Positions 13,534 to 45,010 of a DNA stretch of 64,000 bases are shown one piece after another; position 1 is the first letter of the stretch; each line of letters opens with the position of its first letter. This DNA is from Liolophura sinensis. Lineage: Eukaryota; Mollusca; Polyplacophora; Chitonida; Chitonidae. The notes beneath the pieces were generated by a model that saw only the letters and a list, made by a program, of their open reading frames with translations, had not been told where the DNA came from and searched no databases. A program made the translations under genes and the position numbers. The stretch lies in NCBI RefSeq assembly GCF_032854445.1, contig NC_088300.1, forward strand, positions 76,003,966 to 76,067,965, written 5' to 3'.

Positions 13534-13627
13534 TTAGTTACAACAGCCACTCTTTTTCTGGTTACGCATGGATTCCAGTTGCATACCAACGGATTTCACT
13601 TCAATATCCTCGTTCGTTCGAAGAAGC
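13534..13627 (-). CDS. RASEF: RASEF-like last coding exon with prenylation cysteines
   Basis: One base, 30 codons and TAA. The end SGCCN carries the adjacent cysteines that Rab geranylgeranyl transferase modifies in many Rabs. The acceptor is TTGTCTTACAG|GCTT. In the gene's orientation, the first AATAAA downstream of the stop is in the SINE remnant at 13271-13319. Confidence 0.93.
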
Positions 13628-16600
13628 CTGTAAGACAAAAGGTAACACTCTTTTACACTTTGACCCGCATAATTATGAAGACTAACGTCATATTCCCCAG
13701 GTCCACGTTTCACAAAACATCCTGGTTCAGTAAATTGCTTTAACTGTCGGTTGTATTTTGCTGAAGTCCAACATGGAGTATTTCTCCACAAACACTTCAT
13801 AGGTATAAATTTAAATTGCATACGGAAGCACTTTTGCTTCAGCAAAAGAACTTAATAAGTTTCGCGAAACCGGACCCTGGTATCTTTCCCCACAATCAAA
13901 TAATCTTATATAACCAAGTTTTGAACTGACTTCTGGGAAGAACTAATGTGTTCATTTGCGTAAGCCGATTTCTTTTCTGGTACCCGATGTAGTAATATTC
14001 ACTTTAATTTGTAGGAGATAACAATGTTGGTTTTTTTTTGCATGAAACCCATGTTTCACAAAATTCTGTTTTATGTATCTTTTACGCCTATAGTACGCCT
14101 GGATACCAATGTCTTCAACGCCCTCAGCACTATGCAAACGACGACACGAGCATCGTCGACTGCAAATTGTCACAAACGCTCTATAAGCAGTGAGAGAGGC
14201 ATGTATATGTAGGTCGTAAATGTATATTACGTGTGTTAAGAGCACAGCAGTGAAGACAGTGTGGTATACGAAGTTCTTGAGTTGTACAAAGTGTATACAT
14301 ACCTGGCCAGCTCCAACACAGCCTCGTGTATGTTGTCTCCAGACTTGGCGCTCGTCTCGATGAACAGAGCGTCAAATTCCTGCAACAAAAACGTGTTCAA
14401 ATTACTTCTTAATTGTCTTGCAGTAACAAAATCTATATAGCAATAATAAAGCAGAAAAATGTTGTAACATATTTTCTTTTTATAAATGGGCCAAGTCGTT
14501 CCACGAAGGCAAAGAAACTAGATTTGCATAAACATATCCCGGTAGATGCAGTAACCAATTTTAGACCAAGACGTTAGTCATATCCTCAGTCGAGATGATT
14601 GTAAATAAATTCACGCCCGAACTATTCAGTGAAATTAGAAATCCTTTTTTCCTGACAAAACCTTAAGCCACAAGAGATAACCCACCCGAGCCAATCGGAC
14701 ACCATCTTCAAAGCGAACCGTTCGCCGACCTTGGTTTTCCATATCTTCACGTAGGTCAGTCTTGTTGCCGCACAGCATCATTGGAATCTTTTTCTGGGCG
14801 CCATCCTGGATTTAAGTGCAATATTGTATTATGTTAGCTATCATAGCAGTACTCGCACTCCAGTACGCACACAATAATCTGTACAAGGCGTTTCGGACCT
14901 GTGCACGTATGCGTAATTTTTTACGGGTAACTTAACGTTTAATGTTTGACATGTACAATATCAAAGCCATCTACTTCACAAATCAAAGCCAGGAAGATCC
15001 GGACTTGCATTCATTTTAAATGTTTTAACGACTGGAAATTGTGTTAGGGTCAAATTTGCTGAACAAACCTCTATGGCCTCTATCCATTCCCTGACATTCA
15101 GGAAGGAGCGTTCGTAAGTACAGTCGTACAACAACAGGACGCCGTCAGCACGACGGAAGTATGACTTAGCAATACTCCGAAACCTGAACAAAGAGAAATG
15201 GAAGAAAAAAATGTTGTAACTTTTGCGACGATGTTATCCAAAGTTTAATGTCTCGTTTTCATGCAGGAATCACACTTAAACATGTATGTTCTTAGATGCA
15301 GGGTATCATTGCCACTATCATCAGTCAAAAGAACCTGATACAGGTATTCCCCCAGTCTGCAGGTCTTCTTCTATAACGATTGTCTGTTTCATGTTTACTG
15401 TCACGAACTTGCCTCATATCAAATATGTCTTACCTCTCCTGCCCTGCTGTGTCCCAGAGCTGTAGAGCCACAGTCCTTCCGTCCACTTCAATGATCTTTG
15501 TCTGGAAGTCTACGCCTAAAGAGATGAAAAACAGAAATCTTTACTGCTATTAGAGCCCAGTTAGTTTTGTCAAGCAGCATTCGCCAGCCATGACCTCTTC
15601 CCCGGGTCATTATTTACCGCACTAATACACCGAGCCGACCAGCAGTGGAAGCCTAGGCCTCCTACTCGGCTTATTCCGTCATTCTGGATATCAAGATTAT
15701 ACCAAATTGAAAACGTTAAGACTGACCATACTTTACCCGGCATTCCGGTTACAAAATGTGTCAATGTAATGCCCTTACTGAATACTGAAAGCGCAGTCTG
15801 AAAAGTTGACTTGTTACAATTACCTACACATCCATTTACGGCTGCAGATTTTAGTAGCCAAATGTCACATGTCACGAAATACCCAAATCTGTACATATGC
15901 CGTTTGCTGATACCTACCCAGAGTGGAGCTGATGTTATTGACGAATTTCCCTTTGCAAAGCCTCATAATGAAGCTGGATTTGCCGACAGCGGCGTCCCCT
16001 GCCAAAACCACTTTGTACATGCGCTCTGGATCACGGTTTGGCGTAGGCGGAATCTAACAAAACAGAGCATCGATATTTGTGCAAAACATATTAAAAATAA
16101 TGTTTTATCCCACGATAAAATATGAGAAACAGATGATGCACAGTTTTGTATATCAGTTTGTTTTACACCCAGAATGTATTTGAACAGAGGTTTGCCTAAC
16201 CTCTAATTTGCCTGTCCCCAATTTGAATGAAATGTCTCCTTAAACTGTACAGAACTGGGATACGATATTGCTACACGTATGGCTTAGTTTTGAAGTGAAA
16301 AAGATATCCTTGCGAAAAATATTATTAATTTCTTGACCAATTCTTACAACACCACACTGGTTCAGGAGTACAGCAGAGCTACCATACAGGGAGTGGACTT
16401 ACGTCATCTTTGGGTAACAGTGGCAGTTGTCTGCGGACGGCAAGGCTCCCCGACCCTCTGCTGGCTGAAGAACCAGGCCTCATGGGGATCGGTGATTCTG
16501 TCCCTGTGTCCATCTCGTCCTGAACAACACAACATAGTTTTACTTAAGCATGGTTGAATACCTCACAGGGAGTATAACTAGAGTTTATTGCATGGTTGAA

Positions 16601-19600
16601 TACCACAAAGGAATATCACTTAAGTTTATTGCATGGTTGAATACCACAAAGGAATATCACTTAAGTTTGTTGCATGGTTGAATACCACAAAGGAATATCA
16701 CTTAAGTTTGTTGCATGGTTGAATACCACAAAGGAATATCACTTAAGTTTGTTGCATGGTTGAATACCACAAAGGAATATCACTTAAGTTTGTTGCATGG
16801 TTGAATACCACAGAGGAATATCACTTAAGTTTGTTGCATGGTTGAATACCACAGAGGAATATCACTTAAGTTTATTGCATAGTTCAAAACTACAGAGGAA
16901 TATCACTTAAGTTTGTTGCATGGTTGAATACCACAAAGGAATGTCAGTTAAGTTTGTTGCATGGTTGAATACCACAAAGGAATATCATTTAAGTTTCTTG
17001 CAAGGTTGAATACCACAAAGGAATATCACTTAAGTCTGTTGCATGGTTGAATACCACAAAGGAATATCACTTAAGTTTGTTGCATGGTTGAATACCACAG
17101 AGGAATATCACTTAAGTTTACTGCATGGTTGAATACCACAAAGGAATATCACTTAAGTTTGTTGCATGGTTGAATACCACAGAGGCATATCACTTAAGTT
17201 TACTGCATGGTTGAATGCCACAGAGGAATATCACTTAAGTTTACTGCATGGTTGAATACGACAAAGCAGTAAAGTTAAAATTGTAGCGCTAAACAGCTCC
17301 AACCCTTAATATGGCGGCCTATCACAAGGGAGTTTATATAGTTTTGGAAGAATCTATCAGAAAATGAAAACTATGCCTGTAACTCCAGTACCATTACATT
17401 GCGATTCATGCTATCAGTGCCTAACTGCCAAAATTATTATTTACAAATACCGATAAATATATAAATTTCAATTTAGAATGTTAGAACATAAACAAAACTT
17501 GTTTATAATTTAATCATTTCTTTCTTGAGGACCCTCCGCTCTTTGCTTGGCGACCTCCAAACGTTACAAAAGCGCACATAAATATACATACAATATATTG
17601 CTTCACTTTTTTTTTTAATTCACAGTAAGCTGTTGCAACTAGATCGCCATCCAGAAATTTAGCATTGAGCATTCTAAGCAAATATACATGTAAATAGACA
17701 TATGTGTCCAAGGTTGGACTGCCAACAGTATATTATGGTCGTTTTTGTGCAAATGAACCATATTTAATATTTTATTCAATATCACAACCATGCTGACAAT
17801 TTTGTGAGATTTTCATAATATAGATGATTCTCAAAGAAGCAGTGGCCTGACTTCCTGAATCCCTGTCTTTGTTATTGGATACAATTTCATCTTAAAGATG
17901 TATTGAAGAAATGTGACTGTATTAGATTTCCTGTCTGAGGTAACTTACCTCACTGTCGGAAGCTGACAATGCCTTCAGTCGTTTGGGTCTACGTCTTCTT
18001 CTTTTATCACCCTCATAGCTCAAACATTCGGACTCTGTGTCAAGTTCATTGAAATCACGCATCGTTGAATGTCCGCTATCTGAATGCGGAGGAAAGTGGG
18101 TTTCACAGCATGCGGTAAAAAGAGGAAAGCTTAAGCAACCCTGTTATTACAGAACCTCAGCTAAGCATAGCTTATTGCGAGTTAAAACCGGCTTTGTGTT
18201 AGAAGATAAAGTATGCTGTTAAAAGCTATTTCATTTTGTTACAGAGTTTCTCGTCCTTTACAAATATTGTGGTTATTAAGACAAAAGCTCAGAACGACCT
18301 TCTTCCAAGAGACGTGAATCGATGTAATGACATTTTATGAAGAGTGTTATTCTGGTCTACCATAGCAATGCACATTCGCATCAAGTCAATCAGAAAAGTT
18401 TCAGTTGAAAGGCCACAGTGTCAACATGCACGCAACACTTGTCCATACCCAAGTAAACACACATACATACAGGATTACGGTAGACAACGAGTTTACGGTG
18501 TAAATGAAGCTCAACCGAGTATCAGCTGGGATAAGCATCTGCATTTGCTATGCTTGTTTTGTTAGTATGTGCCATGTCTAATATTTTTCTTGTGGGTATC
18601 TTGTAACCGTACATTTATGTAAGGAACTTGTTGGAGAAAGTGGTTTAAATTGTGAGAAAGACGGAGTCGTTCTCTATCACAAACACAGAATCACCAGTCT
18701 CACGGGTTTATGTTTGCTGTTTCAGACATGTTAACCGTGTTGTATTAGTATGCAAATTAGCCTTCCACTGTTAATCTAAATTAGAGATGTTTATAAAAGA
18801 CACGCAGACTCAAAGAGTATGACCGTCAGGCACGTGAAATACGTGATCGTGAAAGCATTTGGGTCAGATCTGACAGACCATGCACAGTTGTACGCCAGTA
18901 AGACGGTGGGCTGGAGCTCCGAATCTGCTCATTGAAGCTAGCTCACTTACAGTAGACAGTTCTTCATGTATTATATTATAATACCATGAATGTTAACCAT
19001 TATGATGTTCACACATTTATTCCCAGTATCCAATTTAAAGAAGTTCACTGCGAAAAATGTTAAAAGGAATGATTGCAGCACTTTAAGGCTTCGTACCCAG
19101 ATCCCCCATGCTGTCTACGTCACAACTCTCCTGTGTCAAGAATCTCCTGGAACTCCCGCTCTCGTTCAGACGACTCTCCGTCATGCTGAACTCTTCTGCC
19201 AAGGAGGAAGTTAAGCTACATTCTTGTCTGAAATGCAATCAGCATGTCTTTCAATTTGGGGCTTTGAGTTTTGCGATGAAAAATAGCCCAGTAAGATTAT
19301 CCAACATGGATTTAATTTTTGTAACGGTTTCAGTGTAAAAAGAAGACATCCGTGAATGAAAGTGGTTTCAGTAACTTACAACAAAGTTTTACGATAACAA
19401 AATGTTTCACAAGTGACAGCTAGGCTTGAAGTTAAATTCGGTCATTTACACAAACCTACCTTCCGATTGGACTATCCAAATAACTAGACAGAACTGATCC
19501 TTGTTTACAGAGTTGTCCATGATCGGTCGAGTCATTTCCGGCTGACTGTGTGGCATAACCAAAAAATACATGTAAGACGAAATAAATGTGACTTGTTCAT

Positions 19601-20134
19601 AAAGACTTACAGGTTTGTGAGAACTTGCTACATTAAAACAAGTGATTGGGTGCCCTGTGGAGTCAAATCTTTGACGATTGTTTGAAGACAGAAGTGAAGG
19701 TATTGTCCGATCGAAGTACAAATGTCATCGATAACAGGAGGAAGCTGACTTACACTGCCGGATAGATTCCTTTTGTGCAGAATTCGAGTCTGTTCTAAAG
19801 CTGCCCTTAAATCGTCATTGGTATCGTGAAGTTTTTTGTTTGCATCGCTGAAACAAAACACGAAGTTCGCCTTTAAATATCAGTCATGAGTATAGCTATA
19901 GAAATAGCAATACTTGTAGGGTCGCTGTATAGCACTCTATTGGCGTTTAGTTAAAAGAGTTGTGAATACTCTCTAGAATAAGTTAAAATTTGACTTTTTG
20001 CCATTTTCCACAGGTAGTAACAATAGTTATTACACACGGACTAGGGCTAATGTTCTATATCCAATAGCTCCGTATCACTCGGGTAAATGACATGTACAAT
20101 GGGTATGCGAACGCGAATACTGCGCCAGTCTAAA

Positions 20135-20210
<76 letters not shown>

Positions 20211-23200
20211 TTCAATTTATAATCAGCGTGCTATAGTATTCGTTAAGAATTGAAAATGTGTGATACAGTTCAGCCCTTTTGTACGAGTACAACTAAGCAT
20301 CCTTTATACCGTGTTTCATTTGACATGAATATTTACTACATCAGTACTTAATTACATGTAGGGGCCTCCGTGGCTCAGTTGGTTAGCGCGCTAGGGCAGC
20401 GTGATGACCCAGGAGTCTCTCACCAATGCGGTCGGTGTGAGTTCAAGTCCAGCTCATGCTGGCTTCCTCTCCGGCCGTACGTGGGAAAGTCTGGGGGCAA
20501 CCTGCGGATGGTCGTGGGTTTCCCCCGGGCTGTGCCCGGTTTCCTCCCACCATAATGCTGGCCGCCGTCGTATAAGTGAAATATTCTTGAGTACGGCGTA
20601 AAACGCCAATCAAATAAATAATTACATGTATGTTATACATGCACGAAATATAACCCTTTAATTAAGACAAAACACGTCATGTGGGTCCAGAAACAAAACA
20701 AGTAAGTTAGTACACGGGGATGTGGGGAGGGGTCATAACTAGGCTTAACTCGACAGCTGCCTCCTTCAACAAACAGGTGAGTCACGGTTTTACTTCGCGG
20801 AGTGGGCACACGTGGCGCTTGTGGAAATCAATCAATCTGCTTGAATGAAGTATATATATACAGAGAGAGAGAATGCGAGAGAGACTACAAAGCTACGTAC
20901 TGCAACATATGGAGTTGTCGAGTGAGGTTGTCCTGTTCCCTGATATAATCCGTCACCGTGTCTTTCTCACTGAAAAATAAAATATATAATACCTGTAATT
21001 AGTCAAGCTAATGTTATAAGCGTCAAAACTTTTAATTTATGTTCACCACTAATTTTGTATGGTTAACTGTTCATTTCTAAACCATATATCTGATGAACTG
21101 TTCACTTCTATGATCTGTGTGTGGTTTGGTGTTCATCTATTTAGCGTGCATGATTTAGCGTTCGTTTTTATCTCGTGTTTAGATAAGTCTATATACGTGC
21201 ATGTGACCCTGTTCAGATCTAAAACATATTTGTTGTTACCCGTTCATTTCTATGCCTGGACGTGGTTTAGTGTTTATGTCGGATGTGGTTGAGTGTATAT
21301 TTCAAAGCTGTGTGGTGTGTAGTGTTTATTTCTATGCTGTGTGCGGTTTAGTCCTCAAATTTATATGCGATTCCTTGTAGTTGGTGGCACTTTATTTACT
21401 TGAATCGACTGTCCCACCTGAGGAGGTACGTACTACGTACGAGGTCAACTGCACTCTGTGATTTTAATTTTGATATAATGAGATAGCTGATCGCCATCTA
21501 TAAGATAAATGCTTTTCATAACAACAGTACGGTACATACAATTTCAGCTGATATCGAATACCTCTTTACATTTACTGACAGTAGCTCTTTTTTCTGTACA
21601 CAGTAAATCTGTGTTTATTTTATTCGTTTATCATTGCATTTTTGTAGTTCTCGCAGACGCGTATGTGAAAGATGAGCATGTGTTGATTACATACCTGTGC
21701 CAAGAAGTATTAAATACCCTAATACGATATAATAGAACAATACCGGAGTTAACCCCGTTGTTGTCGATCCTGTTTTAAGTCAATCAGGAACCAACTGATG
21801 TTTATGCTATGTTCTGTTAACGTATCCGTGTATTTTGTAATATTCCAATGTATCCCAGTGCACTACATGTTATGCCAACATATCCCGTTGCGTTGTTTTA
21901 ATGTGAATGTATGTTAAATGTGATGACAACACAGCATTTTGAGTAATTCTAGACCAGTCACGTCTAATAAATTGCAATTAACATCACTGCATTTTACCTA
22001 ATTCTCCTTAAACCATGTGGTGCTAGGGGGCGTATAATTTGCTACCATTTATGCATTTACATGAACAGTCAGTATAAAACCCTGACTGAGGTAAATGGAC
22101 AAGAGGCCATATTTCCACAGGTTACGTGTGACCATTTGCCAGCTATCATATTGTCGCCTGTGCTCTGGTTTTTCTGCCTATGTGGCAGGTGTTAATTATT
22201 CTGCATTATGATAGCATATCTCATATATTATGCCTGCGTATCTCAGTGTATTATGTTATTCTACCGTTTCACATTGCACTATGTTATGCCAGCAGCCAAC
22301 ATCAGTTTTATTCTTGGCTTTATATTGACTGCTGACGTTGACTTACATCTGAAGTTCGTGACACTTGTCTTTGTATTCTTGTCTCATGGTGGCCAGCTCA
22401 CTGCGCGCCAGGGCGAGGCTCGTCTGAGCGTCTGTCAGGGAGCTCTTCATATGTCTGTTCTCGTGGTACAGCTCCTCGAGACGAGACTTCAGCTCGCTCA
22501 GTTGACCGTCGCTCATCCTGTCACGGTTCACCATTGTCTCCAGCTGGTGACAGAGAGAACAGAAGTTTTAAGCATTGCGTTATTCCTCATTTTGTACCAA
22601 TGCGTGTCAGAATAGACTCGAATTCAGTCTCATTTCAAGCCGGCGTCACAAAGGCATCCCACTTTCTTCATGATACCGGTATTCAAATGAAGGCCAGCAG
22701 TACGCCTACTCATAACATGATATTCATATTGAAATCTATAGCCATGAAAAGCTCTGTTAAATCTTATGAAACATCTCCAATGCGACATGCTTATAATGAG
22801 GGAATATTTACTTCGTGATGTAAATACCAGTCAAATAATAAATGTTTGAATATGAAACTGTGTATAAATAGGTGAATAACGTTACCAGCAATGACTGATG
22901 CATTCTGTCTTCCATGAAACTCCTTGCACGCCACATCGTCTACACTTATCCCGCATGTCCATCAGCACAACGACGAACACTTATTTACACTTATCCCGCA
23001 TATCCATCAGTACAGTGCAGGTATATTTCAACTTACCGACTGTAACTTCTTTAAATTCTCGTGGAGCATGTTAATTTCACTCTCGAACCTGGTCTTCATC
23101 TCAATTTTCTCTTGTTCAGCATCACGCAACATCTGCGGAAAATCCAACAAACATTCTTATTACAAAATGCATCCTTAGATCGTAAGCCCTAAGACACGAT

Positions 23201-26200
23201 CCAGTTCATTAATTCGAAGATACCAAAGATTGCAGGATCGTTAAGCGAAAGCAATACATGAAACGCCAAGTGTTCGAGCCGCCTCGGCCTTTTGAATTAT
23301 CGACAAATTGTGAGACTACACATAGATAGTTAAACTGTCATTCAGTTACATGATCCATAATATGTCTTTTCTTATTACTTTGGTGAAGATAGACTTTAAG
23401 GTTGCGTGCAAATGTTTATTTGGTTGACATGTACTAGTATGGATTTTAAAGAAACGTCAATTGCTGATTGCCTGTTGTGGCGTTTTGTGTTTCGGCAAGC
23501 CTTTAATTCTGATGCTTGTAGTTTCTGTGTGCATCATTATAGTAAACAGATGCATACAGCCCAATGTAGCGTAGATTTGGTATTCTCAAACAGGTGACAT
23601 TTATCTCATCATTGCCGAAGAAATGCTGTTGTTGTTATAACCATTTCTGTATCAATTTTTTTTGCTATTATGAGGATGACAACCAAGAAACAAAGGTATA
23701 CATCTGCGAAGATAGCTGTAGCGTACATGTTCATTCATGTGTCGTATTTGACTGTTATAGTATAATAATGTCTGCGCTCCATTCTGACTATAAAGGTGTT
23801 CTGATCCTGTGCGTATAACCGTTGATAGGGCCATATCTAGCTACTACTACAGGTTAGCACGAACTTCGTCAGAAATGTCAACACTCTGGGCAATATTTAA
23901 CTTAAGGGAGTGAACCAATTTAACCAAGGGTAAAAGATGATAAGTAGTTATCAAAATTACTCGAAATCAATCAACTTTCGGACATAATCAGTCAACCTGT
24001 GTCAAAACTTGTTGCAATTATATAGGGCTGTTGTCAAATCCAGGTCAAAAGTACTGGAGACAGTAATTGTTTCACGAAGTTCCGAGACATGAAAACGCAC
24101 GAACTGCTGACTGGGTGTCGTGCTTATCTAACGTTAATCGCATGGTTGTGTTGACACAACGAGACTCTCTACTGGTGGGTGTAGTCCGAAGTTGATGTTG
24201 GACCAAAGTCAAAGCACGTTGTCAGTTCGCAAGCTGTCGGTGTTATGTAAGGATTTAAATGAATTCAGACTTATAATGAGACCTCGTAAACAACAAGGAC
24301 AAAAAAAACTCTACAGAAGTGCGTCGCTCTTAGTCGAAGCTACAGTATAAAATTGGTTTCTAAACACGTATGTGTTCGTAGGCAAACAAATAGTAAGTTC
24401 TATTTATTGATCGACGATAACCTTTTATCCCATCCCCTTTTGTTCGTTTCAAATAACGCGCCACCCATAAGCCAGCTGGAAAAACAGTAAAGCTATAGAA
24501 ATGACCATATACCTTTCACCAGCTAACTACCAACTGTACAATAACGTCCGACGGAGAATTTATGCTTGACTACTCAAAACATCAACTATAGCATATCTAA
24601 CTTTATATCTAACGCCATGTTTATATAGCCTCCGTTGCTGAGTGTTATCATGAATGCACAAGAAAAGCAAATCTGCATGAATACAACAGAAATTGTTTTC
24701 TGAGCAGAAACAAAGTGGGTGCACAGAGATTTATTATGAACACTGTAATTTACAATTAAAGCATCCGTAGATTTTCATGCAGTACAGAATAAATGAAAGC
24801 AAGAATTATGTTCATTATCCTGTTCGTTGATTTAAATTGCTGGCATTTAAAATCAGTGTTGGAAATCATTTAATGTTCAAATGCACTTATTAACTGACTC
24901 GTTGTTGAAAGAGAAATCTAGTTAGTTATAGAAATCAAAAGAGTTCTTTCCGCACAGTCTAGTTGCCTAAAATGCGCGCAATGTGCAAGTGTTCGGTTGC
25001 TTGAGGCGAATATTGCTATATGTCAAACTGTCACCTCTTTCCTAACCCGGGATTCGATCTTCTGGACCTGATTTTCCGTCTCTTCCTCCATCTGACGCAT
25101 AAGACGCTCATGTTGCTCCTTCTCTCTGAGGAATAGAGAAGAAAGACGATATTTCTGAGTTGCAATAAATACAGAGATCAGGGTTTTCACCCTGAAACAA
25201 TCCCGTGGATCAGACTTAACGTAACTTTCTGTGTTTCTTGTTTAAGCAAACACTTTGTTGTTGGCTGAGCAACTCTAGTTGTATATAGTGTTACCTTAGT
25301 TTTTTCAAGAAACACTCCAGGCTGGACTTGGGCAAAAAAAAAATACGGACTTACAATCAATCTACTAAACTTAGGCAGTTTCGTGAAACCGGGTCCCGCT
25401 CAACTGTGGGTAATTGAGACTTACACACGAATCACATACAAAACGAAATATAAGTACTGACCTATGCTTCCGGACCGATCCCACGACGCCATATTTAACT
25501 TGAGTCAACAAGAACAATATAATGCGTAGCACATGACCCAAGATGTTGAAACTGCGACAGCTTTGTTTCAGATTAAGTGAACACTTGCATGACGTCCAAT
25601 TTCAACATCCAAAGGCCACAAACATGCGCTAAAATCAGATTCAAGGTTAATACAATCGGCCCAGTTCTGGATATTGTTTAACGCAGATCTATGGAATAAC
25701 TCATGAAAAAAATTGAACGCTGCTTAAAAAGGATCGGATCGGCAGGAAATCATCAAATGTAACAGAGTATAATTTTGGAAACAGATGTATTAGTAGGATT
25801 TAAGTGTAAAGAAGATGGGGCTTGTGATTCATGACATTAAAACGTTCAAATAGTATGAACGGTGTATAAGAAGAACGCACCTCTTGAAGGACTTCTCAAG
25901 CCGCTCATTCTCCTGCTGAATTTGTCTGACATCCTTCAGGACACCCAGCACGATGCTCTCGAAGTGCGGAAGGAGGTAAGGCGACTCTGACTCGTGGAGG
26001 TGCTGGTACAGCTCGCAGATCTGCTCCTGGCTGTTCACGGAACGGAAGCGGTTCAGATGACGTTAGAATACAGCTAACAGAAATGGCTAGAAAATTAAAC
26101 TATCTGGATACGAGATGGCAATAGCTAGCTAGAATGGCGATATTGGACAATTGTTATAGTAATTAGCTATCAAGGCATCTAGATACATGTAGAAAACATT

Positions 26201-27108: not shown

Positions 27109-30100
27109 GATTAAATGTTAGCGTTGATGATTCCTTTGTGTGGGGATTTAATGCGAAGTTTCAGAGTGGAAATCTGCGGAACAAAAGCTTCCGCATTGTT
27201 TGCATACTTTGGCTGCTATCCAGCTCAATAACTTTACATTGCAAGACACGCGAACAGGGATTACTGCAAGCAGCTCCCGACAGCTTAGTGATAGTCGATA
27301 CACTTCATGGGTTATCTCGGTCGATTTCTGGTTTGACTGAAAATACATCTCACTCATTCTTGGTTCCTACCAATTCATATTGACTTATGTTAGACATCAG
27401 CCATGTGCTCAGTGGACACCAAACCGACGCCGTATAAACATATACTGCTCATTAGTGTTTTTACAGACGAGTGATTTAATATACAGTGGTTTGTCACACA
27501 AAGGCCATTAAAAATCAGTTTCGTTACATTATACGTGGGGGAAATAGGAATCCCGATGAACAATGTTTCATTTATTACACTTAAATGTGAATACGAACGA
27601 GGTATTCATTGGAAATTAAATATGTATTAACTTAATTAAGTTAAATTTTTGAGAACAAAATAGGAAAATAACACAAAAACGTGTTCTGAGTTCATCACGA
27701 GATGAAAAATGCCTCTGAATTTATAAAGAAATTCCGCGTATCCGTTTAGTGTAAATTGTAATTTGAAGTTTCTTTGACTATAGTCTTAAATGGAAAATTC
27801 AGTGTACATCACACTGGGATGTGAGGCATCTGAGATGTGTTTGATTAGGAAGTGGTATGTTAACTACTGTATGTCGGGTTGCCGTCCAGCTATGTATCTC
27901 CACCCGGTCACTATGGCTGCCATCTCTGACTTCAGGCTTTAGTCTTCCTGAGCGGAGTGTGTTCCGTGTGATAACATCTGCATTTGATAGATATACATCA
28001 GTGAATTCCTATAGGGTATGAAATGAGGCCAAACCCAAAAACACGTCGCACATCTTCTGCATAGTGACAACTTTTTTGTTCAAATCCACATGGGGCTGTC
28101 CGTGGGTGTGTGCCAGTGGGTGTGTGCCAGTGTCGTCTGTTGATCTAATTCACCTTGAAAAACGAGTAACAGTATTTCACAAATGCAGGCCTAGGTTTTG
28201 CTCGCGGCAGTTGAACTTAACTGATGTTTTTTTCACAAGTGTGTACATGTGCAGTCCTATTTCATGGTGTGTTGGCAGCTATGGAGAGCGAGATTTACTA
28301 AAAACAACTTTCATTGTAAAGTGGTCTGATGAGAGTGCAGGCCATCTAGATGGTATGTAGTATGTAGCCATCTGAACGGGTGCGTATCTGCGTGTCCTCA
28401 GGCCTCATTTGACACAAATGGACGGATGCGTACTCTGTAACCTGCTAAGTATACAAACCTTATTTCAAAACATAAATGAGTGTCTATCAAAATAGTAAGA
28501 ATTCTCGAAATACATGTATAACAAACCTAGTTTTGGAAAGTTGCTGAATCTGTGCTCTAATACTGACTGGAATGACGGAATTTGCTCCCCGTTTAGTCTT
28601 TGACTCTTTCACCGAAGCTGTTTCTTCATTGTTCTTGTTTGTCTCAACACTTTTGGTAACCATACTGTCAAAATCCCGTAAGGAGACAAATCCTTCATTG
28701 TTTTTATCAAGAGACTCAAAAACAATGTCCGCCTCATCGAGAGTCAGGTTCAAGTCCACTGAGTGGTCCATGATGCTGTTACGTGTCAAGTAACCATTCT
28801 TCTCAGGGTCACAAATTTCAAACAGATGCTGAACCTTTTCTCTATCCCAAGCGGACTCCATTTCGCCCGCGTTCTAAGCCACATACAACGATTAGTGTGG
28901 GCAGATTTGTAATTACGTGTACCCTCTGTACACTATGCAATAGTCAGAGGATACTACTGAAACTTTTTGTAACAACAGCCCATGTATCGTTTAGATATAC
29001 ATTTTATCCTGAAATTCACACCAATGTCAAGAGACCTTGGTGAATGTAATCCCATTCCGATCCACGGATCAGGTTACTGATAACTTTGATAAAGGTCCAA
29101 TTAAGCAGTTGTCAGTCAGATTTATTAAGACAGCTTCTTGGCATGAAATTCGATGACAAAAGGTAAAACTATACGCCCAAATGATTCCAACAGAATTCCG
29201 TCGCTTTGGATGTACTAGACCTCAACTAAACAATTTACCAGGAACACATTAATTGGTAATCAGTAATTAGACCGCCAGATTGTTATCCGGTTCGAACTAC
29301 AGTGTCCAAACGGCTTGTCTTGAAATGTAGATCATATTAGATTCCTCGGTGCTGTTGATGTTCTTGTGAAAGAGTTTCTTCACCCCGTTGCTGTTGTTGT
29401 TGTTGTTATCGAGTAAGGTTACTCCTATAGAACCTATCTCAGTCCGTTACCACAGCATGGGCTGTGTTATGTCCACGGTAACACTGTAACCAGCCTGAGT
29501 GGAGAACTGGCAGTATCCTTTTTAAATGGCCTTCTGGTGTAAAGGCCCTCAGTGCAAAATGTCCGACTGACATGTACATCCCAACAAACTTAAGATTAGT
29601 CCGGCGGTACAGGTAAACTGTTAATTTAAATTCTCCAGTCAACTTAAGCGCATGTTGTTCAAACACCAGAAGTCAGCATATGTGTGGAAACTGTGCAGTT
29701 AAATAGGTCGCTAGCACACGACGGTCACTTAACACTTACACCTGAGTGTCGTGCGGGAGTCCATATCTGGGTGGGAAACACATGTTATGTTCACTGACCA
29801 TTCCTCCAGGAGGGTTATCCCGCTGAGGCCCTACCAAGCTGACCATTACACGACCACTTGACAGCCAGGACTTGACCACTGAACTGACCACTGTCCTCCA
29901 ACTATGTCACACCTGTGGATTCCCTTTGTATGTCAGTGCCGTCGTCCTTAATCACAAGCCGCTCTCACCTTCGATGATGCTGCATGGGTACCTGTTGAAC
30001 CATGACTACGTGCTTTCTCCACGTGCTTCTCAAGATCTCTTCTCAAGTTCCATATGCATACACACCACATACATATCAGGGTAATGTCACATGCATCTAA

Positions 30101-30690
30101 ATGATTTCTCAGCAGAAATTCACTAGACTTGTCAGCTTTCATGGACTTAAAACTCACTGAGCCTAGTAAAGCCGGGCGAACTACTGGTGCATAAACGAAT
30201 ACTGCACATACATGTATCTAAAGCTCAAGCCTGCAAGTAGTTGTTCAACCGTCTCGCTTGTTTGCCTGGCTGAATAAAGGTGATTCGCTTCGGTAGAGGT
30301 CTATTATTAAATCAGATTTACTTGTAGGCTTTGGTAACAATTTCACTGAAGACCTGGATTTTATACATACCGATAGATTCGATCATTAAGCTATCTCGAT
30401 GTCAGATAACAATCAAACCACTGTTGTTATAGATTAAGAGGGTTGTAGTCCTAATGGTCTTTAATGCAAATTTATGCCGCTTAATAGACGTTTCTGTTAT
30501 GATTTGAACGAATCAGAAAGACTCTCCAAGTGTTTGATGGTCCGTAAATATATTACATGTAATAACGGCTACTAGTAATTTCTAGTTTATCTCCATCGAG
30601 CATAAATCAACTTGAACATTGGAAATACATGCATTTATCTAAAATCAGCCTTAAAATGGGCATATGTGACGTTAATGATATAATTAAAGC

Positions 30691-30753
<63 letters not shown>

Positions 30754-33393
30754 CAAAGAGATCTTTAACTTTAATACCTGTACCCCCTTAGGCAGTATAT
30801 TATTACCCTGTAGCTTTGTCTGAGTGGTAAATCCCAGTTTTAAGATGAAATTGGCAAAACCGATGGCATAAAACCTTGTTCAGACGAGATCTCCAGATTC
30901 TCGAAGTTAAATAGACAGAAAGTTATCATGTACATGAAATTGGTGTCAATTCAAAATTCGTTGCCACAAGATGACAACGTGCGCATGCGCGATGGCGCTG
31001 TATTAAATCAGTAGTAAGTGCAAGACGTTTATACTAAGCAATGTTGCATGTTTGTAAAAGACCTGATTTTAGACCATACTAACCGTAACGTGAATGCAGC
31101 AATAAAGGAATAACTGAATGCAGTAGTAATGGCATAAATAATATTATAATTTTAATCTGTCGTAATCGGATTTTGGGATCTCATTGGTTATAAATGGAAT
31201 ACTATCTTCTACTGGAAGTTGTCTAGAGCAAGACCGTTGAGGTCACGGGTTCAAGGTCAGCTAGCTCGGCCATTGCTTTACGTCAGGATGTCACAAAAAC
31301 TTAATTGTGAACGGCGTCGAACATCAAATAAATTAGTTAATGATGGTAAGCTTGGAAAAAATTAAAGACAGGTAGATGTAGACACGTATTTAGATACATA
31401 TATGGCTTAGCACAAAACATCTAATCGCCGTAACAGCGGTATTGTATATCTGTACAATCTGCTGTCTCCATGGACTATATTCATATGTCTTGGGGTATGG
31501 CATGTGCTTTGGGTGTTGTCTAACTTTGCACTTTATTCTTACTCGTCTAATTTATAAATGAAGGCCTGTTACCGGAAACCTCTTCAGATCCCCCGCTAGC
31601 CCACCATAAACTCTACACACCCCGTGCATGTGACGAGAGAAAATGGCATGTTTTAACACATCTCGGTTATGTAGGCTAAAAAGTACGAAGGATAAATTTT
31701 ATGTCAAAACTGGCTTTAATCCACGTAACAGAAATAAAATAGCTTGCAATCAGGTCCGTGACTAGCTCATAGTCATCACCTGTTACCTTGAGCTTGAAAT
31801 CATCACGGTCATTGATATACATATACACTAGTTGTTTTTTTTACGTAAATATTCCGCGCCATCTGTCGTCCCACACATGAGTGATTTATAAGGCAGACCC
31901 GCACAACATGACTCAGCAATACTATTTATCCTGGGAATCAAATCCTTGTCACAACAAGCGCTTTCTGATCCCAGGGTATTCTATTTGTTCATAAAATCAT
32001 CAATGTGTTCTCTCCACCACACCTAAAGACCTTACTGACTAAAAGAAATAACAGCCAAACAAAATGCCTTCAGTCTTAGAAATAAAAGATCACTTTCGAT
32101 TATTTAAAAGCCGAATTCAGCTTTTCTGTTCTTCCTTCTTTCCCAAGACAACCAAAGAATGGAATTCTTTGGAATTGCCTGTTCATATCAAAAACTCATT
32201 TACAGAATTTACATTTACAGAATAACACGAAGGCCTACTTAAATGCACAACGTTTGTAACCATTGTCACGCTGTCGCAGCATGAGAGTTTCCGTGGAACT
32301 CAAATCGATACGTCCTTGTAACAATGCATGGCCTATGTTTGAATTTGCATGAGAATCCAGCTGGGATCAAGTTACTGAATGATCCAATCATTCGTATGAA
32401 AAAAGTATTTTAATACTTCACTTGTGTTCGAGTAAATAAAGAATCAATATTATAAAACCTGAGATCTATTTTTACAATGAAATTAACTTTTGAATAGAAG
32501 GTATCATTTCACACCACTACCATGATGAAGACTGCATGGATTAGTGTTTGGCGTGTGGTAACTTGCAAGACTACAGGCAAGATGAACTCTGCTTAGCCTC
32601 AGCGTATCGATCTCATAGTGACGTCACACATTAAGCAACCGCGCAGCTGTCACAATGTTGTACTGTCACCGGCTACTGTCTAATATACAGTGACAGAAGT
32701 TTATCGTTTATACACCAGTAAGGCCAAAGGACTGGAATGCGATCCATTGTTCCCTTAAGCTTTGTGCACCTTTATATACACACTTGATGTTAAATAATGC
32801 TTCCTACTGAGCATTAGCCTTGTCAATCCGCTCAAGCAAGCAGGGACTGAGGCAAAGTCAAGGTCAGAAGAAAGACGACCATGAAGGAACTATTATATTA
32901 TGTTGTTTTCTTTGTTTGATCTTTCAGAGTTCGAGCTGCTCTTACAACATAGGCCTAAAGTTGCGGGTTTTATGTTCAATCCATTTTTTTAAGATCATTT
33001 TAAAACCCTTACTTACATGAGATGGAACTATACATGTACACTTTACAATCTCTTTAATAATTGCACAGTGTATTGCTTTTTACAAACTTAATTATCGAAT
33101 TCAGATTTATAAACTTAAATGGATTTAGATGATTGTTGCAGCTTAAAGGGCAAAGGTCAACGCTGGGTCAAGAATCCGGCAAAGTGGGTTACTATTCCGC
33201 TCTAAGGTTGTGTTTTATGTCATATAAAAAGGCAGCTGGCCAGTACATCACTCTGATAAAACCAGTAGATAAAATGTTTCTGTGGCGCAGATAAGCCTTT
33301 ATATCAGACAGTATCAGACTAACCTAGCACATAGGATCGATGTCAGCGTTAGGCCTACAAGTGAAAGTGAAATGTTCGTATAAACTATATATA

Positions 33394-33427
<34 letters not shown>

Positions 33428-34235
33428 TTCATTAAATTCAACTGTCAATCAATACATTTGCTTTTATTTATTAAAATTTATTCCTTGATCATTATAATTC
33501 TTATTTCTTCCCAATTCTTATACACCTGTTTATGAATATTCCACATGGTATTAACTGTATTCAGATTTCTGGAAAAATTCCTGGCTCATTTTAATCAGCC
33601 TACTATGAATATTCCGATATTATTTGCTGTATTTAAATTTCTTTTACAATTCAATTTTCAGAAAAGTAGCAAATTGAATTTGACGCTGTATGTTGTCTTC
33701 TGTCATCAAAATGTCTCTGTGCACATATAACTAACACTGCTGCACCGTTTAATTATTTTAAATGATAATTGCATTTAACTCATACGACTATCTTATAGTG
33801 CGACCATCCAAACCATGAGTAAGCTTCGTTTCCATTTTGTAGGTAAAACAATGATTACAAAATTCTTACAAAAACTTACCAGGAAAGTGATTTCAAGCCA
33901 TCATGGAGACTACCAACGAATTCCTCATCCGGTCCACCTCCGCCGCCATCGCCATTGTCATCTGACTTCTGACTGGCCAATCTCTGGCGACGCTTGGCAC
34001 GACTGATACTCAGCAAGGAGCTGCTAATGTCACGGAACCCCCGAGCGAACTCTTCAACGCTGATCTTACCGTCAGCATCCTTGTCCAGTTCACGGAACAC
34101 CTCCGTCAGTTCATCACTGGACAAATCCGTACATACCTTGGCCAACTCCGACTTGTCGAGGTACCCAGAGCCGTCTAGATCACACGCTTTGAACAACTGT
34201 CTCAAGTTGGTGTCCACTGACGGCCGTCGTTCCAT
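13534..34235 (-). CDS. RASEF: RASEF/Rab45-like EF-hand, coiled-coil, Rab GTPase (spliced)
   Basis: This large atypical Rab GTPase combines calcium-binding EF-hands, a self-associating coiled coil and a C-terminal Rab domain; the family is tied to membrane traffic. Coding exons, in transcription order: 33880-34235 (or alternative 28527-28861), 25881-26030, 25035-25125, 23037-23132, 22347-22543, 20901-20969, 19754-19847, 19460-19545, 19097-19185, 17949-18079, 16403-16519, 15918-16053, 15434-15515, 15069-15183, 14686-14805, 14303-14379, 13534-13627. Every junction has GT/AG and matching phase, giving about 699 aa, close to the roughly 740 aa of the vertebrate protein. Visible motifs: EF-hand loops at residues 19-30 and 51-62, coiled coil about 150-350, P-loop GDAAVGKS 511-518, WDTAGQE 558-564, NKTD 617-620, ETSAK 651-655, C-terminal GCCN. 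The exon 9/10 junction is the only ambiguous one. Confidence 0.95.
14303..14379 (-). CDS. RASEF: RASEF-like Rab domain exon: ETSAK box
   Basis: 25 codons plus two bases. [20 protein letters not shown] contains the G5 box (651-655). The acceptor is GTTGCAG|GAAT and the donor GCCAG|GTATGT. It joins the last exon through an Arg codon. Confidence 0.96.
14686..14805 (-). CDS. RASEF: RASEF-like Rab domain exon: guanine specificity (NKTD)
   Basis: 40 codons, phase 0. [14 protein letters not shown] contains the G4 box NKxD (617-620). The acceptor is AATCCAG|GATG and the donor GCTCGG|GTGGGT. Confidence 0.96.
15069..15183 (-). CDS. RASEF: RASEF-like Rab domain exon
   Basis: One base plus 38 codons. 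It encodes [20 protein letters not shown] followed by a segment ending [10 protein letters not shown], the Rab-family F4 signature region. The acceptor is TTGTTCAG|GTTT and the donor ATAGAG|GTTTGT. Confidence 0.97.
15434..15515 (-). CDS. RASEF: RASEF-like Rab domain exon: switch II
   Basis: Two bases, 26 codons and two bases. It encodes [12 protein letters not shown] and [10 protein letters not shown], the G3 box (558-564). Gln563 is the residue normally needed for GTP hydrolysis and is intact. The acceptor is TCTTTAG|GCG and the donor GAGAG|GTAAGA. Confidence 0.97.
15918..16053 (-). CDS. RASEF: RASEF-like Rab domain exon: P-loop
   Basis: 45 codons plus one base. It carries [20 protein letters not shown]: the Walker A/G1 loop (GDAAVGKS, residues 511-518) and the switch I Thr in STLG. 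The acceptor is TTGTTAG|ATTCC and the donor CTGG|GTAGGT. Confidence 0.97.
16403..16519 (-). CDS. RASEF: RASEF-like linker exon before the Rab domain
   Basis: 39 codons, phase 0 at both ends. It is Pro/Ser/Gly-rich and probably disordered. The acceptor is TTGTTCAG|GACG and the donor GATGAC|GTAAGT. A 41-bp minisatellite begins about 30 bases upstream of the exon, in the preceding intron. Confidence 0.9.
16549..17271. repeat. 41-bp minisatellite in a RASEF-like intron
   Basis: About 17 copies of a 41-bp unit (GCATGGTTGAATACCACAAA, GGAATATCACTTAAGTTTGTT). Copies differ by a few bases. The array begins about 30 bases from exon 16403-16519, close to its acceptor. Confidence 0.95.
17949..18079 (-). 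CDS. RASEF: RASEF-like linker exon with acidic and basic stretches
   Basis: Two bases plus 43 codons. The sequence begins [18 protein letters not shown], which resembles the DSGLSTLRD-type segment before the Rab domain in vertebrate RASEF, followed by a five-arginine run that could be a nuclear or membrane-contact signal. The acceptor is CGCATTCAG|AT and the donor AGTGAG|GTAAGT. Confidence 0.92.
19097..19185 (-). CDS. RASEF: RASEF-like linker exon (acceptor choice ambiguous)
   Basis: The preferred reading starts after TTCAG at 19185: one base, 29 codons ([15 protein letters not shown] and a segment rich in Asp/Ser) and one base. The donor is CTGG|GTACGA. A stronger-looking acceptor lies 10 bases upstream (CTTGGCAG|AAGAG, exon starting at 19195); it fits only the alternative frame of the previous exon. 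The downstream frame is certain because it joins the next exon as Asp. Confidence 0.8.
19460..19545 (-). CDS. RASEF: RASEF-like linker exon (frame partly ambiguous)
   Basis: 28 codons plus two bases in the preferred reading, which is polar and Ser-rich ([19 protein letters not shown]). The acceptor is CACACAG|TCAGCC and the donor GGAAG|GTAGGT. An acceptor four bases further in (GTCAG|CCGG) would give another frame that is also open, but it encodes an unlikely hydrophobic run. The preferred frame continues into the next exon only if that exon starts at 19185. Confidence 0.75.
19754..19847 (-). CDS. RASEF: RASEF-like exon, end of coiled coil
   Basis: One base plus 31 codons. It includes [19 protein letters not shown], which resembles the conserved NRKLHDSND segment of vertebrate RASEF, followed by a Ser-rich end. 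The acceptor is GTTTCAG|CGATG and the donor GGCAGT|GTAAGT (phase 0). Confidence 0.93.
20135..20208. repeat. (TA)n microsatellite
   Basis: About 37 TA dinucleotides without interruption, in a RASEF-like intron. Confidence 0.98.
20349..20630 (+). mobile_element. Full-length tRNA-derived SINE with 12-bp target-site duplication
   Basis: The body is 20361-20618. The head has a pol III A box (TGGCTCAGTTGG) and B box (GAGTTCAAGTCC). A central unit (CGTACGTGGGAAAGTCTG) follows, then the mollusc-type tail TTGAGTACGGCGTAAAACGCC and CAAATAAATAA. TAATTACATGTA occurs at 20349-20360 and again at 20619-20630, so the insertion is young and complete. It lies in a RASEF-like intron, antisense to the gene. Confidence 0.95.
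20901..20969 (-). CDS. RASEF: RASEF-like coiled-coil exon
   Basis: One base, 22 codons and two bases; it encodes [20 protein letters not shown] and a little more. The acceptor is TTTTTCAG|TGAG and the donor TTGCA|GTACGT. Phases match both neighbours. Confidence 0.92.
22347..22543 (-). CDS. RASEF: RASEF-like coiled-coil exon
   Basis: 65 codons plus two bases. The acceptor is GTCACCAG|CTGGAG and the donor CAGAT|GTAAGT. It encodes a long heptad helix including [19 protein letters not shown] and [15 protein letters not shown]. It is the longest coiled-coil exon of the gene. Confidence 0.94.
23037..23132 (-). CDS. RASEF: RASEF-like coiled-coil exon
   Basis: Exactly 32 codons, phase 0 at both ends, with acceptor TCCGCAG|ATG and donor CAGTCG|GTAAGT. 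The product is a charged amphipathic helix ([20 protein letters not shown]). Confidence 0.92.
25035..25125 (-). CDS. RASEF: RASEF-like coiled-coil exon
   Basis: One base plus 30 codons, very rich in Glu, Gln, Arg and Lys (for example [16 protein letters not shown]), as expected of a coiled coil. The acceptor is CCTCAG|AGAG and the donor AAAGAG|GTGACA. It ends in phase 0, matching the next exon. Confidence 0.92.
25881..26030 (-). CDS. RASEF: RASEF-like common exon, start of coiled coil
   Basis: This is the exon shared by both isoforms: one base, 49 codons and two bases. It encodes a segment with a [16 protein letters not shown] motif that leads into a charged heptad-rich helix ([11 protein letters not shown]). 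The acceptor is GTGAACAG|CC and the donor AAGAG|GTGCGT. It corresponds to the segment after the EF-hands in vertebrate RASEF. Confidence 0.92.
26040..28520. other. RASEF-like intron, no further exon found
   Basis: Contains a (TA)n tract and anonymous AT-rich DNA. Open frames at 27138-27383 and 27148-27357 overlap on opposite strands and lack usable splice sites. Confidence 0.5.
27037..27106. repeat. (TA)n microsatellite
   Basis: About 35 uninterrupted TA units in a RASEF-like intron. Confidence 0.98.
28527..28861 (-). CDS. RASEF: RASEF-like alternative first coding exon B: second, divergent EF-hand pair
   Basis: The exon encodes 111 codons plus two bases, starting at an ATG with A at -3 and G at +4. 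An in-frame TAG sits just upstream, inside a good acceptor (GGCTTAG|AACGCG), so a noncoding 5' exon probably splices here. The EF loops are [12 protein letters not shown] (18-29; position 12 is Ser, so calcium binding is doubtful) and [12 protein letters not shown] (52-63; Asp at position 12). The donor is ACTAG|GTTTGT, leaving AG, which joins exon 25881-26030 to make Ser. Splicing exon A into this exon would create TGA at the junction, so the two exons look mutually exclusive. The EF pattern recalls the CRACR2A/EFCAB4 relatives of RASEF; that is inference. Confidence 0.85.
30691..30750. repeat. (TA)n microsatellite
   Basis: About 30 TA units in a RASEF-like intron. Confidence 0.98.
30980..30991. 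promoter_or_regulatory. NRF1-type site upstream of RASEF-like exon B
   Basis: TGCGCATGCGCG matches the NRF1 consensus and is followed directly by ATGGCG. It lies about 2.1 kb upstream of exon B in gene orientation. It could mark a promoter and a noncoding first exon for isoform B; no other evidence was found. Confidence 0.3.
31215..31335 (+). mobile_element. Probable degraded SINE
   Basis: A B-box-like GGTCACGGGTTCAAGGTC is followed by a tail GAACGGCGTCGAACATC and AAATAAATTA. It resembles but differs from the SINE at 20361. No clear target-site duplication was seen. Confidence 0.5.
33388..33426. repeat. (TA)n(TC)n microsatellite
   Basis: A short TA run passes into a run of TC dinucleotides. 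Confidence 0.95.
33880..34235 (-). CDS. RASEF: RASEF-like alternative first coding exon A: canonical EF-hand pair
   Basis: The exon encodes 118 codons plus two bases. Two canonical EF-hand loops are visible: [12 protein letters not shown] (residues 19-30) and [12 protein letters not shown] (51-62), each with acidic residues at positions 1 and 3, Gly at 6 and Glu at 12. A Ser/Arg-rich stretch and a run of glycines follow. The start ATG has G at -3 and G at +4, and an in-frame TGA lies 12 bases upstream. The donor is CCTG|GTAAGT. The exon leaves TG, which joins the first base of exon 25881-26030 to make Cys119. A possible acceptor about 20 bases upstream of the ATG suggests a 5' UTR intron. Confidence 0.93.
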
Positions 34236-34299: not shown

Positions 34300-36240
34300 A
34301 CAGAAGAGCGTAGCTTTGCAATAATTTCCTTATCTCTCGTTTAGCGGTGGTCCAAAGGGCGTCTGTTAGGTTCCACTGGATGTCAAATTCATCCTGGCAA
34401 AAGATCTGAAGAAATCAAACAAAAAGAATTTGAGACCAAATAATGTGAATATTATTCAAACACTTGTGTAGACAAGTTAAGCTTTAGTGGAAGTTTCTAC
34501 TTTTGAGGTAACAATTTAATTCTAATTCTTACTTTAAACACTAAAATAGCGCATTAAAACGAATACACTGAATTCAAAAAGTTACCAACAATCAACTCAA
34601 AATTTGTAAAAGACAAAGTGAAGATAAGAACATATATTTAATCACAAATATGGAATAACTGACTGACATATTCTTTAGTTCATTGTTTCATTGATTGGGT
34701 GGTAATTTTTTCTTCCTTTCACTCGCAAATTATTTACAGGTAACCTATTTAGCTTAACGGATAGTTTATTCTGGTGGCTGTTCTCTTTCGGTCGGCAACA
34801 TCTGGAGAAACCGATGCGCAAGCGCATAGTAATAAATGGTGTAGCTCGCCTATCTGGTTTTATAGCTTTGCTGTGAAGATATACAAATATGTCTTTGTGT
34901 CTTTGTGAATATACATAACTTTGATCATAAGCTAGCCTGACGAAAATCGTCATACTTCGCAGTTGTCAGATGTTTTAAAGAATATGTCATAATCCTTTCT
35001 TTGATTGATCTCGTTCGTAAGCATTAAGTTGTGTAGGTTAATAACAAAGAGTATCGATTCTAGTTTGAAGCTGAATAACCAACATCGCTAATCGATACGG
35101 ATTCTAAAAGCGCATTGCGCGCCTGCATATACATAGCAGCCATATCATAATTCATCTCATACAATGAAATGAACAGCAGGTATTGATTTTCTAAGAAGTT
35201 TTGCCCAGCTAGACTTAAATGCTGAAAACAAGCTTGCGGAGGTTCTGTTAACGTTTACTGACCAGTAAAGCCAGTTAGGATGTCAACATGAATACTGCAT
35301 TAATCACTCAAGGCATGTAGGAATTTACTTCGATAACAACGTAAACCAGGAGATTTGGACCAAAACCATTTGGTGATTTTAGGAATTTTTGACAAGCGTC
35401 GAATGATAATGTAAACAAACATGTCTTGAATCGGATTGTCTTGTATTCTTTTCTTTCACCCGGGTATTATGTTTACTTACTATACACCTTGTTGATAAGC
35501 AACAAATTCCCAAATGGAGTAAAGAGTAAATCTGTGCATGGTAAAATGACTTCATAAAGAAGATCTTGCCTAGGGTAGATGGTAAACTAGTTGCTTACAA
35601 TGTGAGGTCAGCATTGCTTTGTGTCATGCCCCACCACGAACTTTTTACATGTTATTTTCTGATTGTAAGTAAATATATACCTTCCTGCGTACAGAGAGGG
35701 AGCCAGCATCAGCTGGACTTAAACTGACAACGACCGCATTGGTGAGAGGCTATTGGGTCATTGCGCCAGGCTGGGTTGTAAATAAAAGCCCGTGAATAAA
35801 GATACCGGTTATATACTTTGGTCACCTTTGGGAACGAAAGGCATTGCTAAATTTGTTAACAGACGATTCTTCGTTTGGCAAATAGACAGATTTCAAAGAA
35901 CTTCTCACTGATGCCCTCTACTTAAGCCTAAAATGGAAGGACTTATCCCTGTGAGAATGTCACAAGGGTTTGCACTCAAATAGGAAACATCATATACCGT
36001 GTATCACACAGGTCGAAATTTTTTTTCTTGGGTATCTGTTTTGTACATTATTTTTTTCTCATATTCAAGGTCTCATTTAGTAGGAATCTGGAGCATATGC
36101 TCTCTTGTACAAGATAACGCACGCTTCATGAATCGAGTATTTGTGAGGGTTGAGTACTGTATACGGCCATGAAAACATCAGAGCTCGTCCATCGTTGTGC
36201 AGTGCAGAATAATGACCCAAAGTGAGCAGTGGTCGTTACG
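34300..36240. other. Upstream flank of RASEF-like gene
   Basis: No exon or clear promoter box was recognised. The 5' UTR of isoform A must begin somewhere here. Confidence 0.35.
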
Positions 36241-43889: not shown

Positions 43890-45005
43890 ACGTACGGTGT
43901 ATATTTTACCCTACAAGTACTGTTTGTAGGGTATTGTCCACACCAGGATATCGATAAAAAACTGTTATCAAACCCTTGCTCTCCCGGACATAGGCCTGTA
44001 TAGACATAGCGCGGCGTATACTAACTAGCCGTATATGCGGGTCACTGAATGTTCCAACGGCTTTCCAAATTGATATGGTGGTTTATCTAAACTATATAAA
44101 GTTTGGGTTTTTTAGGCCTATATTCAGAACATGTATGGAAAATGTCGGACCTGTTCCATTTTCTGACAGGCCTACATTCACGTTGCTCTATCAATAGGCC
44201 TCCGAGGTTTGCAAAATAGGCTCTCAACAAACTGAAAAGAGAAATAAAAAATTTTTTATCCAATACTCCCTAAGATACATGGTGTAAAAAAAAATACTCA
44301 GAAGTTTCCTTGCACTGGGTGATAGCTATATATGCCGTATATCTCTACAAGGGACAGTGGTATTAACTCGGATTTTACCTTGCATGGGGCTATAATCATG
44401 CCTATGCCGAATCTCTGCGACGGACAACTATATAAACTGGGAATTTACCTTGCGCTCTTGTTTCAACTCGGACTGGAAGAATTTTTTGAGCAGAAAAATA
44501 AATTGCGACCAGATTGTATGGATGTAAGCCTACATGTAGATATATATAGGCTATAGTCCAAAGTGAAGTGTTTATTATATGCCTCGGTGCTATAACACCA
44601 AGCTATCTATAGCCCGGGCGTGGTCAACAAACCAGTCTTAGAGCATGAAAGTCCAGGTGTAACTCATACACCTGTTGCCCCATGTATGAGGTAAGTTGAC
44701 ACACCCCGAGGGACAAGTTGATTCAGGCTGTACAGAAAAGTGCAAGCTTTGCGTGATAGCCCGAACGTGTACTACGCCTACCAAGCGATCATATGATCTA
44801 TATTTTTGAGTTTAAACTGACAATTTTACAACATAAATAGTAAATTCCCTTTGATCAATGAAGTCCTGTAACCTATTAAACTGTGAAAGTTGAACCTAGC
44901 AATAGGTACGTCACGATATACGTAATACGTTCCAGCATCTCGCGAGGCCGTGTGTGTTTTCCGGAACTCGGGGATACTTATGTAAAAACAGTCCTACGCA
45001 TAAAA
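43890..45005. other. Anonymous sequence
   Basis: An imperfect duplication of about 85 bases occurs around 44310-44460 (TTTACCTTGC recurs). No gene was seen. Confidence 0.35.
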
Positions 45006-45010
45006 ATTCC

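Follow-up and report, generated by a model that had tools for sequence, protein, structure and literature searches.

Two alternative EF-hand heads in a RASEF/Rab45-type gene and a proposed calcium switch in dynein coupling

The minus strand of the window (the whole 64-kb stretch of DNA that was analysed) carries a gene that, judged by its sequence, is of the RASEF/Rab45 type and appears to possess two alternative first coding exons, A and B, either of which would place its own EF-hand head on one shared body of probable coiled coil and Rab domain. In this family the EF-hand pair serves as a binding module for the dynein LIC, and we therefore propose that the choice of head sets the coupling of the Rab membrane to dynein, which would be calcium-dependent with head A and constitutive with head B. 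We put the probability of this overall explanation, two heads together with a switch between calcium-responsive and calcium-independent dynein-LIC coupling, at roughly 0.7; that both heads act through the dynein LIC is an argument from analogy towards which we lean. Large Rab GTPases are calcium sensor, dynein adaptor coil and membrane switch combined in a single polypeptide. If a single gene makes both kinds, the same Rab cargo could be transported in a calcium-gated or a constitutive fashion, chosen by promoter or splicing, and, if true, this would provide a testable account of how RASEF and CRACR2A came by their differing heads.

Gene structure and the choice of first coding exon

Joined by script, the exons yield an open frame with either head: a set of 17 exons encodes a predicted product of 713 aa with head A and of 706 aa with head B, and translation stops at 13534. 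Exon A (33880–34235, on the minus strand like all exons described here) begins with an ATG and encodes a RASEF-like EF-hand pair with two canonical 12-residue loops, followed by a linker; it comprises 118 codons plus 2 nt, ends in phase 2 and passes into the intron as TG/gtaagt. Exon B (28527–28861) begins with an alternative ATG and encodes a CRACR2A-like EF-hand pair in which position 12 is Ser in the first loop and Asp in the second, with Glu in neither, again followed by a linker; its 111 codons plus 2 nt end in phase 2 at AG/gtttgt. The leftover bases combine with the first base at 26030 to give Cys (A) or Ser (B), and QEQICELYQ follows in both products. Read on the minus strand, both exons confirm the first-pass annotation in their coordinates, reading frames, leftover bases and the residues of their loops, and the sequence supports its description of alternative first coding exons for two EF-hand pairs with differing predicted calcium binding.

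Sixteen exons are common to both products and their C-terminal part constitutes the Rab domain. Exon 2, the first common exon (25881–26030), begins the linker and probable coiled-coil region; its acceptor is the top-scoring AG between 25990 and 28530 under a model whose training set included this acceptor itself. The joined reading frame continues through exons 3–10 (17949–25125), which encode a probable coiled coil and a Ser/Arg-rich linker and comprise exons 3–6 at 25125–25035, 23132–23037, 22543–22347 and 20969–20901, and exons 7–10 at 19847–19754, 19545–19460, 19227–19097 and 18079–17949. Residues 67–336 match SMC models weakly (E 0.004). Exons 11–17 (13534–16519) encode a further linker, the Rab GTPase domain and a C-terminal GCCN; exons 11–14 are located at 16519–16403, 16053–15918, 15515–15434 and 15183–15069, and exons 15–17 at 14805–14686, 14379–14303 and 13627–13534, where the last ends in the stop codon. 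The reading frame closes with KKSGCCN, and thus with a C-terminal Cys pair of the kind expected for prenylation. Human RASEF also has a C-terminal Cys pair.

A search of the PDB with the Rab domain returned human RASEF (2p5s) at 234 bits (9.8e-69) and SEC4 as the next protein at 148 bits; this ranking refers to the best 60 of 553 matches, which do not include a Rab domain of CRACR2A. The Pfam Ras model matches at 1.1e-52. The RASEF-type Rab domain and the RASEF-like head A together bear out the earlier proposal of a Rab45-like GTPase gene. Human RASEF/Rab45 has the same order of EF-hand pair, middle region and Rab domain; it is described with one EF-hand domain, whereas the gene here has a second, alternative one. 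The intron just ahead of exon 11 harbours a 41-bp repeat (16548–17266, 17.5 copies, 93% matches).

The first-pass annotation had also claimed that joining A to B creates a stop codon at the junction. We reproduced this by way of a candidate 3′ splice site 12 nt ahead of the ATG of B (cttag/AAC, 28873–28874, minus strand): splicing of A to B at 28873 yields an immediate TGA, and by arithmetic the resulting B of 347 nt additionally puts exon 2 out of frame. A protein containing the whole of A and the whole of B was ruled out at the annotated sites by this TGA and frameshift. When the annotated donor of A is kept, four acceptors leave A, B and exon 2 open (28562, 28649, 28664 and 28775), and all four lie at or past the last base of the first loop of B. 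When any internal GT of A is allowed, 228 donor/acceptor pairs stay open; two of the best 12 leave the EF-hand pair of B whole (34137 with 28873, and 34070 with 28839) and both cut the pair of A. Among the joins examined, open readings through A and B need a truncated A or a truncated B. Exon A contains a cryptic donor-like AAG/GTATGT at 34137 (minus strand) that scores 8.7 bits, above the 7.1 bits of the annotated donor, and that would, if used, truncate head A right after its first loop; a second cryptic donor inside A, at 34070, scores 7.2 bits.

The same two proteins could be produced from one promoter if A and B were chosen by mutually exclusive splicing from a shared upstream leader. There are acceptor-like sites upstream of both exons, namely a candidate 3′ splice site in the 5′ leader of exon A (ttcttcag/ATC, 34405–34406, minus strand, 9.5 bits) and, upstream of the ATG of B, the sites at 28925 (6.3 bits) and 28873 (2.7 bits), and therefore both could be spliced from leader exons. 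Exons A and B share phase 2, and their joint inclusion via 28873 breaks the frame as it would in mutually exclusive exons, for which a TGA and frameshift upon double inclusion are common. The acceptor at 28873 is, however, weak, and A and B lie 5 kb apart; we regard a shared leader as possible, at rather less than an even chance, and the alternative promoters proposed in the first-pass annotation as the other candidate mechanism. The CpG observed/expected ratio, 0.92 around A and 0.73 around B, provides no promoter mark.

Kinship of the two heads

Head A is RASEF-like by sequence: the best of its seven comparisons is with the EF hands of RASEF (2pmy), with 27 of 59 residues identical including EFARGF (z 24.4). 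Head B obtains its highest score with CRACR2A (18/56 identical, z 19.5, ungapped), compared to 14/55 (z 15.2) with 2pmy and 19/55 (z 14) with head A. The heads of RASEF and CRACR2A are themselves identical at 21 of 51 positions (z 15.3), and by identity head B is no nearer to CRACR2A than RASEF is. Head A is short of two residues between its hands, and head B and CRACR2A align without gaps.

Among the five PDB matches of head B that are shown as alignments, no other single stretch comes near that of the CRACR2A EF-hand pair (6psd), which extends ungapped over 58 residues (3.2e-6); CML18 outranks it solely because two weak stretches are added up, and from the third entry on the whole-sequence E-values are 2.4e-4 or worse. 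A fold search with head B gave 722 matches, of which the best five are chains of the CRACR2A–LIC1 complex; their E-values are weak (2.5e-3 to 6.4e-3, and no match reached 0.001 or lower), and the underlying model was built from a two-row alignment with a mean pLDDT of 67.7, near 80 across the EF region. The model of head A, with a mean pLDDT of 58.1, is too weak to weigh; its Foldseek list is headed by calmodulin-like proteins and includes RASEF 2pmy at ranks 25 and 42, with the highest identity (44%) of the best 50. A phmmer search with head A produced calmodulins, calcium-dependent kinases and fusions as the best 60 of 496 matches, and 2pmy is not among these; with a profile of A and B combined, calmodulin-type proteins lead, 2pmy stands 15th and 6psd is not among the best 60 of 470 matches.

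Maximum-likelihood trees group head B with CRACR2A with bootstrap values of 83 (eight sequences) and 88 (four heads), values that rest, like the topology tests, on about 60 sites. A and B as sisters gave the worst tree tried, with AU p values of 0.067 for four heads and three trees, 0.084 for the same heads without the loops and 0.046 for eight sequences and five trees. This result and the ungapped alignment with CRACR2A both speak against head B being a fast-evolving tandem duplicate of A, in which case its likeness to CRACR2A would be due to long-branch attraction or convergence. Such a duplication nevertheless draws support from the small number of sites and from the tests that are less discriminating: SH tests keep A and B together (p 0.104 for four heads, 0.124 for eight sequences), and AU tests also keep B with RASEF (p 0.175 and 0.158) and, for the eight sequences, B with the calmodulin-type outgroup (p 0.28). 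We consider a tandem duplicate a tentative explanation whose odds stay below even. Judged by sequence and model, head B is likely to be nearer to the head of CRACR2A/Rab46 than to that of RASEF and is probably not a recent copy of head A; the Rab domain of the gene, unlike this CRACR2A-like affinity, is of the RASEF type.

A bolder scenario holds that a single gene keeps ancient heads of both the RASEF type and the CRACR2A type as alternative first exons, that humans carry the two on separate genes after paralogues may have split them, and that the isoforms make dynein coupling calcium-gated or constitutive; we think it unlikely. A tree of C. elegans and human sequences already divides RASEF-type from Rab44-type genes (bootstrap 93 and 82; PMC3504004), which argues against a simple vertebrate-only split of the heads. 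Klopper et al. count Rab44 and Rab45 among the metazoan duplicates of Rab8, and placed them by BLAST similarity, their position in the tree being hard to establish (PMC3425129).

Exon B as a coding exon

Several features indicate that exon B is, with high probability, a coding exon of the RASEF/Rab45-type gene. Both heads match Pfam EF-hand_7 above the gathering score (A at 1.2e-15, B at 2.4e-8); exon B scores 34.7 bits against a cut-off of 30, and 31.9 bits inside the whole protein. An EF-pair profile, built in part from A and B themselves, was compared with the 2216 six-frame ORFs of the window and retrieved A and B as its sole matches, the next E-value being 0.14. With the common exons as training set and the introns of this gene as background, the codon score of B is 0.13 per codon in frame, versus 0.48 for A, and it is negative in the other two frames of B; GC3 is 0.45 in B versus 0.58 in A. 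The in-frame coding score of B is above that of all 1306 overlapping intron windows, and is equalled or exceeded by 3 of 259 overlapping stop-free windows, all three of which overlap tandem repeats at 36.6–37.1 kb. The coding signal of exon B is thus real but modest. A chance ORF was considered and ruled out by the Pfam match, the coding score and the EF-pair profile search.

The donor of exon B is the best GT in 28440–28861, at 6.4 bits under a model with 15 training donors. It does not have the consensus A at +3 and resembles the donor of exon 14, and its score leans on that one training donor. The region from 13 to 36 kb contains 1392 GTs, of which 41 equal or exceed the donor of B and 29 reach the 7.1 bits of the donor of A. 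Three ATGs occur in the 150 nt ahead of B and none ahead of A.

Exon B might instead be a small gene of its own inside the intron, or encode a short EF-hand-only product that ends within it. Its frame runs 13 more codons into the intron before a stop, AATAAA/ATTAAA signals are present downstream, the first at 27576, and a short human CRACR2A that lacks the Rab domain has been reported (PMC8303950). The 10 minus-strand ORFs tested (five between 25.9 and 28.0 kb, three between 29.4 and 30.9 kb and two upstream of A), however, gave no Pfam match above cut-off, and splicing to exon 2 accords both with the in-phase donor of B and with the likeness of head and body to one family, which makes an independent or short product improbable. 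Still less probable is that B is an unused remnant of an old EF-hand exon, decayed or non-coding: its lower codon score and lost calcium ligands would suit a remnant, but exon B retains 111 open codons, a match to the EF-pair profile and an in-phase donor even though it has diverged from A and RASEF by about 70%, an unlikely outcome without selection. We infer instead that B is transcribed as an alternative first coding exon and that both proteins are produced.

Calcium, dynein and comparable exon pairs

Wang et al. in 2019 reportedly described CRACR2A as a calcium-activated adaptor. The EF-hand pair of CRACR2A binds a helix of dynein LIC1 solely with calcium, which is bound in the second loop alone, the first hand binding none (PMC7655957). 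The first loop of CRACR2A/Rab46 (6psd) is non-canonical, as is that of head B; its second loop is canonical and binds calcium, with Glu at position 12, whereas the second loop of head B ends in Asp. According to the structural work on 6psd, Glu alone is allowed at position 12, ‘not even D’ (PMC7655957). The position-12 rule predicts that both sites of head A bind calcium and that neither site of head B does. With no Glu at this position in either loop, head B should be calcium-blind or offer at most a weak Mg/Ca site; we consider it probable that head B is devoid of normal calcium binding. The key calcium residues are kept in both hands of Rab45 (PMC7655957).

Among human proteins, LIC1 binding is documented in a calcium-dependent mode for CRACR2A and in a calcium-free mode for others (PMC7655957). 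FIP3 and NIN, which have lost the ligands, bind LIC1 without calcium (PMC7655957), and dynein binding by KASH5, whose loops are degenerate, is independent of calcium (PMC10071310). Replacement of F58 of CRACR2A by Asp abolishes LIC1 binding (PMC7655957); in our alignments, counted from D97, the counterpart of F58 is Leu13 in head B and Leu14 in head A, and a hydrophobic residue is therefore kept in both heads. Since sequence cannot yet predict which EF-hand pairs bind LIC1 (PMC7655957), binding of the LIC by either head is put forward here as a conjecture.

Pairs of exons that alternate between calcium-sensitive and calcium-insensitive forms are known from other proteins. Exons 19a and 19b of alpha-actinin-1 are alternative EF-hand exons that give calcium-binding and calcium-insensitive forms from one gene; they are internal, encode part of the first hand, and are both included in a brain form (PMC4435478). 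The gene described here differs in that whole heads would be exchanged as first coding exons with separate ATGs, and in that the product is a Rab GTPase. The mutually exclusive exons 4a and 4b of OGDH specify calcium-insensitive and calcium-sensitive isoforms; these exons lie internally in an enzyme-subunit gene with a short intron between them, and concern a DADLD calcium motif, not an N-terminal EF-hand pair (PMC7969005). Among the isoforms described for large Rabs, the short CRACR2A is without the Rab domain and C. elegans 4R79.2b without the EF-hand domain, and a 2021 review states that none had been reported for rsef-1, the C. elegans orthologue of RASEF (PMC8303950). For mouse Rab44, a longer and a shorter form have been described (PMC8016136). 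The abstracts and passages of open-licence papers that were searched do not mention an additional, alternative EF-hand head for RASEF, CRACR2A or Rab44. Alternative EF-hand heads in a large Rab hence appear to be new, whereas calcium-on/off exon pairs as such are already known from alpha-actinin-1 and OGDH.

Relatives of head B and the common body were sought, as possible contaminating animal DNA, in bacterial and archaeal contigs, where the 70 and 14 pattern matches of two scans included none confirmed by tblastn, and relatives of head B in viral contigs, where none of six pattern matches was confirmed in the same way. Rfam produced no match at the gathering score in the window.

Elsewhere in the window, exons of a CDC50/TMEM30-type gene are located on the plus strand at 51095–51496 and 55901–56083 (Pfam CDC50, 6.8e-28 and 1.3e-22), and two tandem arrays lie between them, one of 30 bp in 48 copies at 52438–53871 and one of 80 bp in 7.9 copies at 54415–55044. 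Long minisatellites occupy 56156–57323 (23 bp, 51 copies) and 60261–61992 (52 bp, 33 copies), the latter of which yields long stop-free frames such as one of 378 aa at 60244–61380. Two stop-free frames at 20443–20661 (minus strand) and 45004–45192 (plus strand) are similar by eye, both containing QEYFTY and GNPRPSA, and are probably copies of one dispersed repeat.
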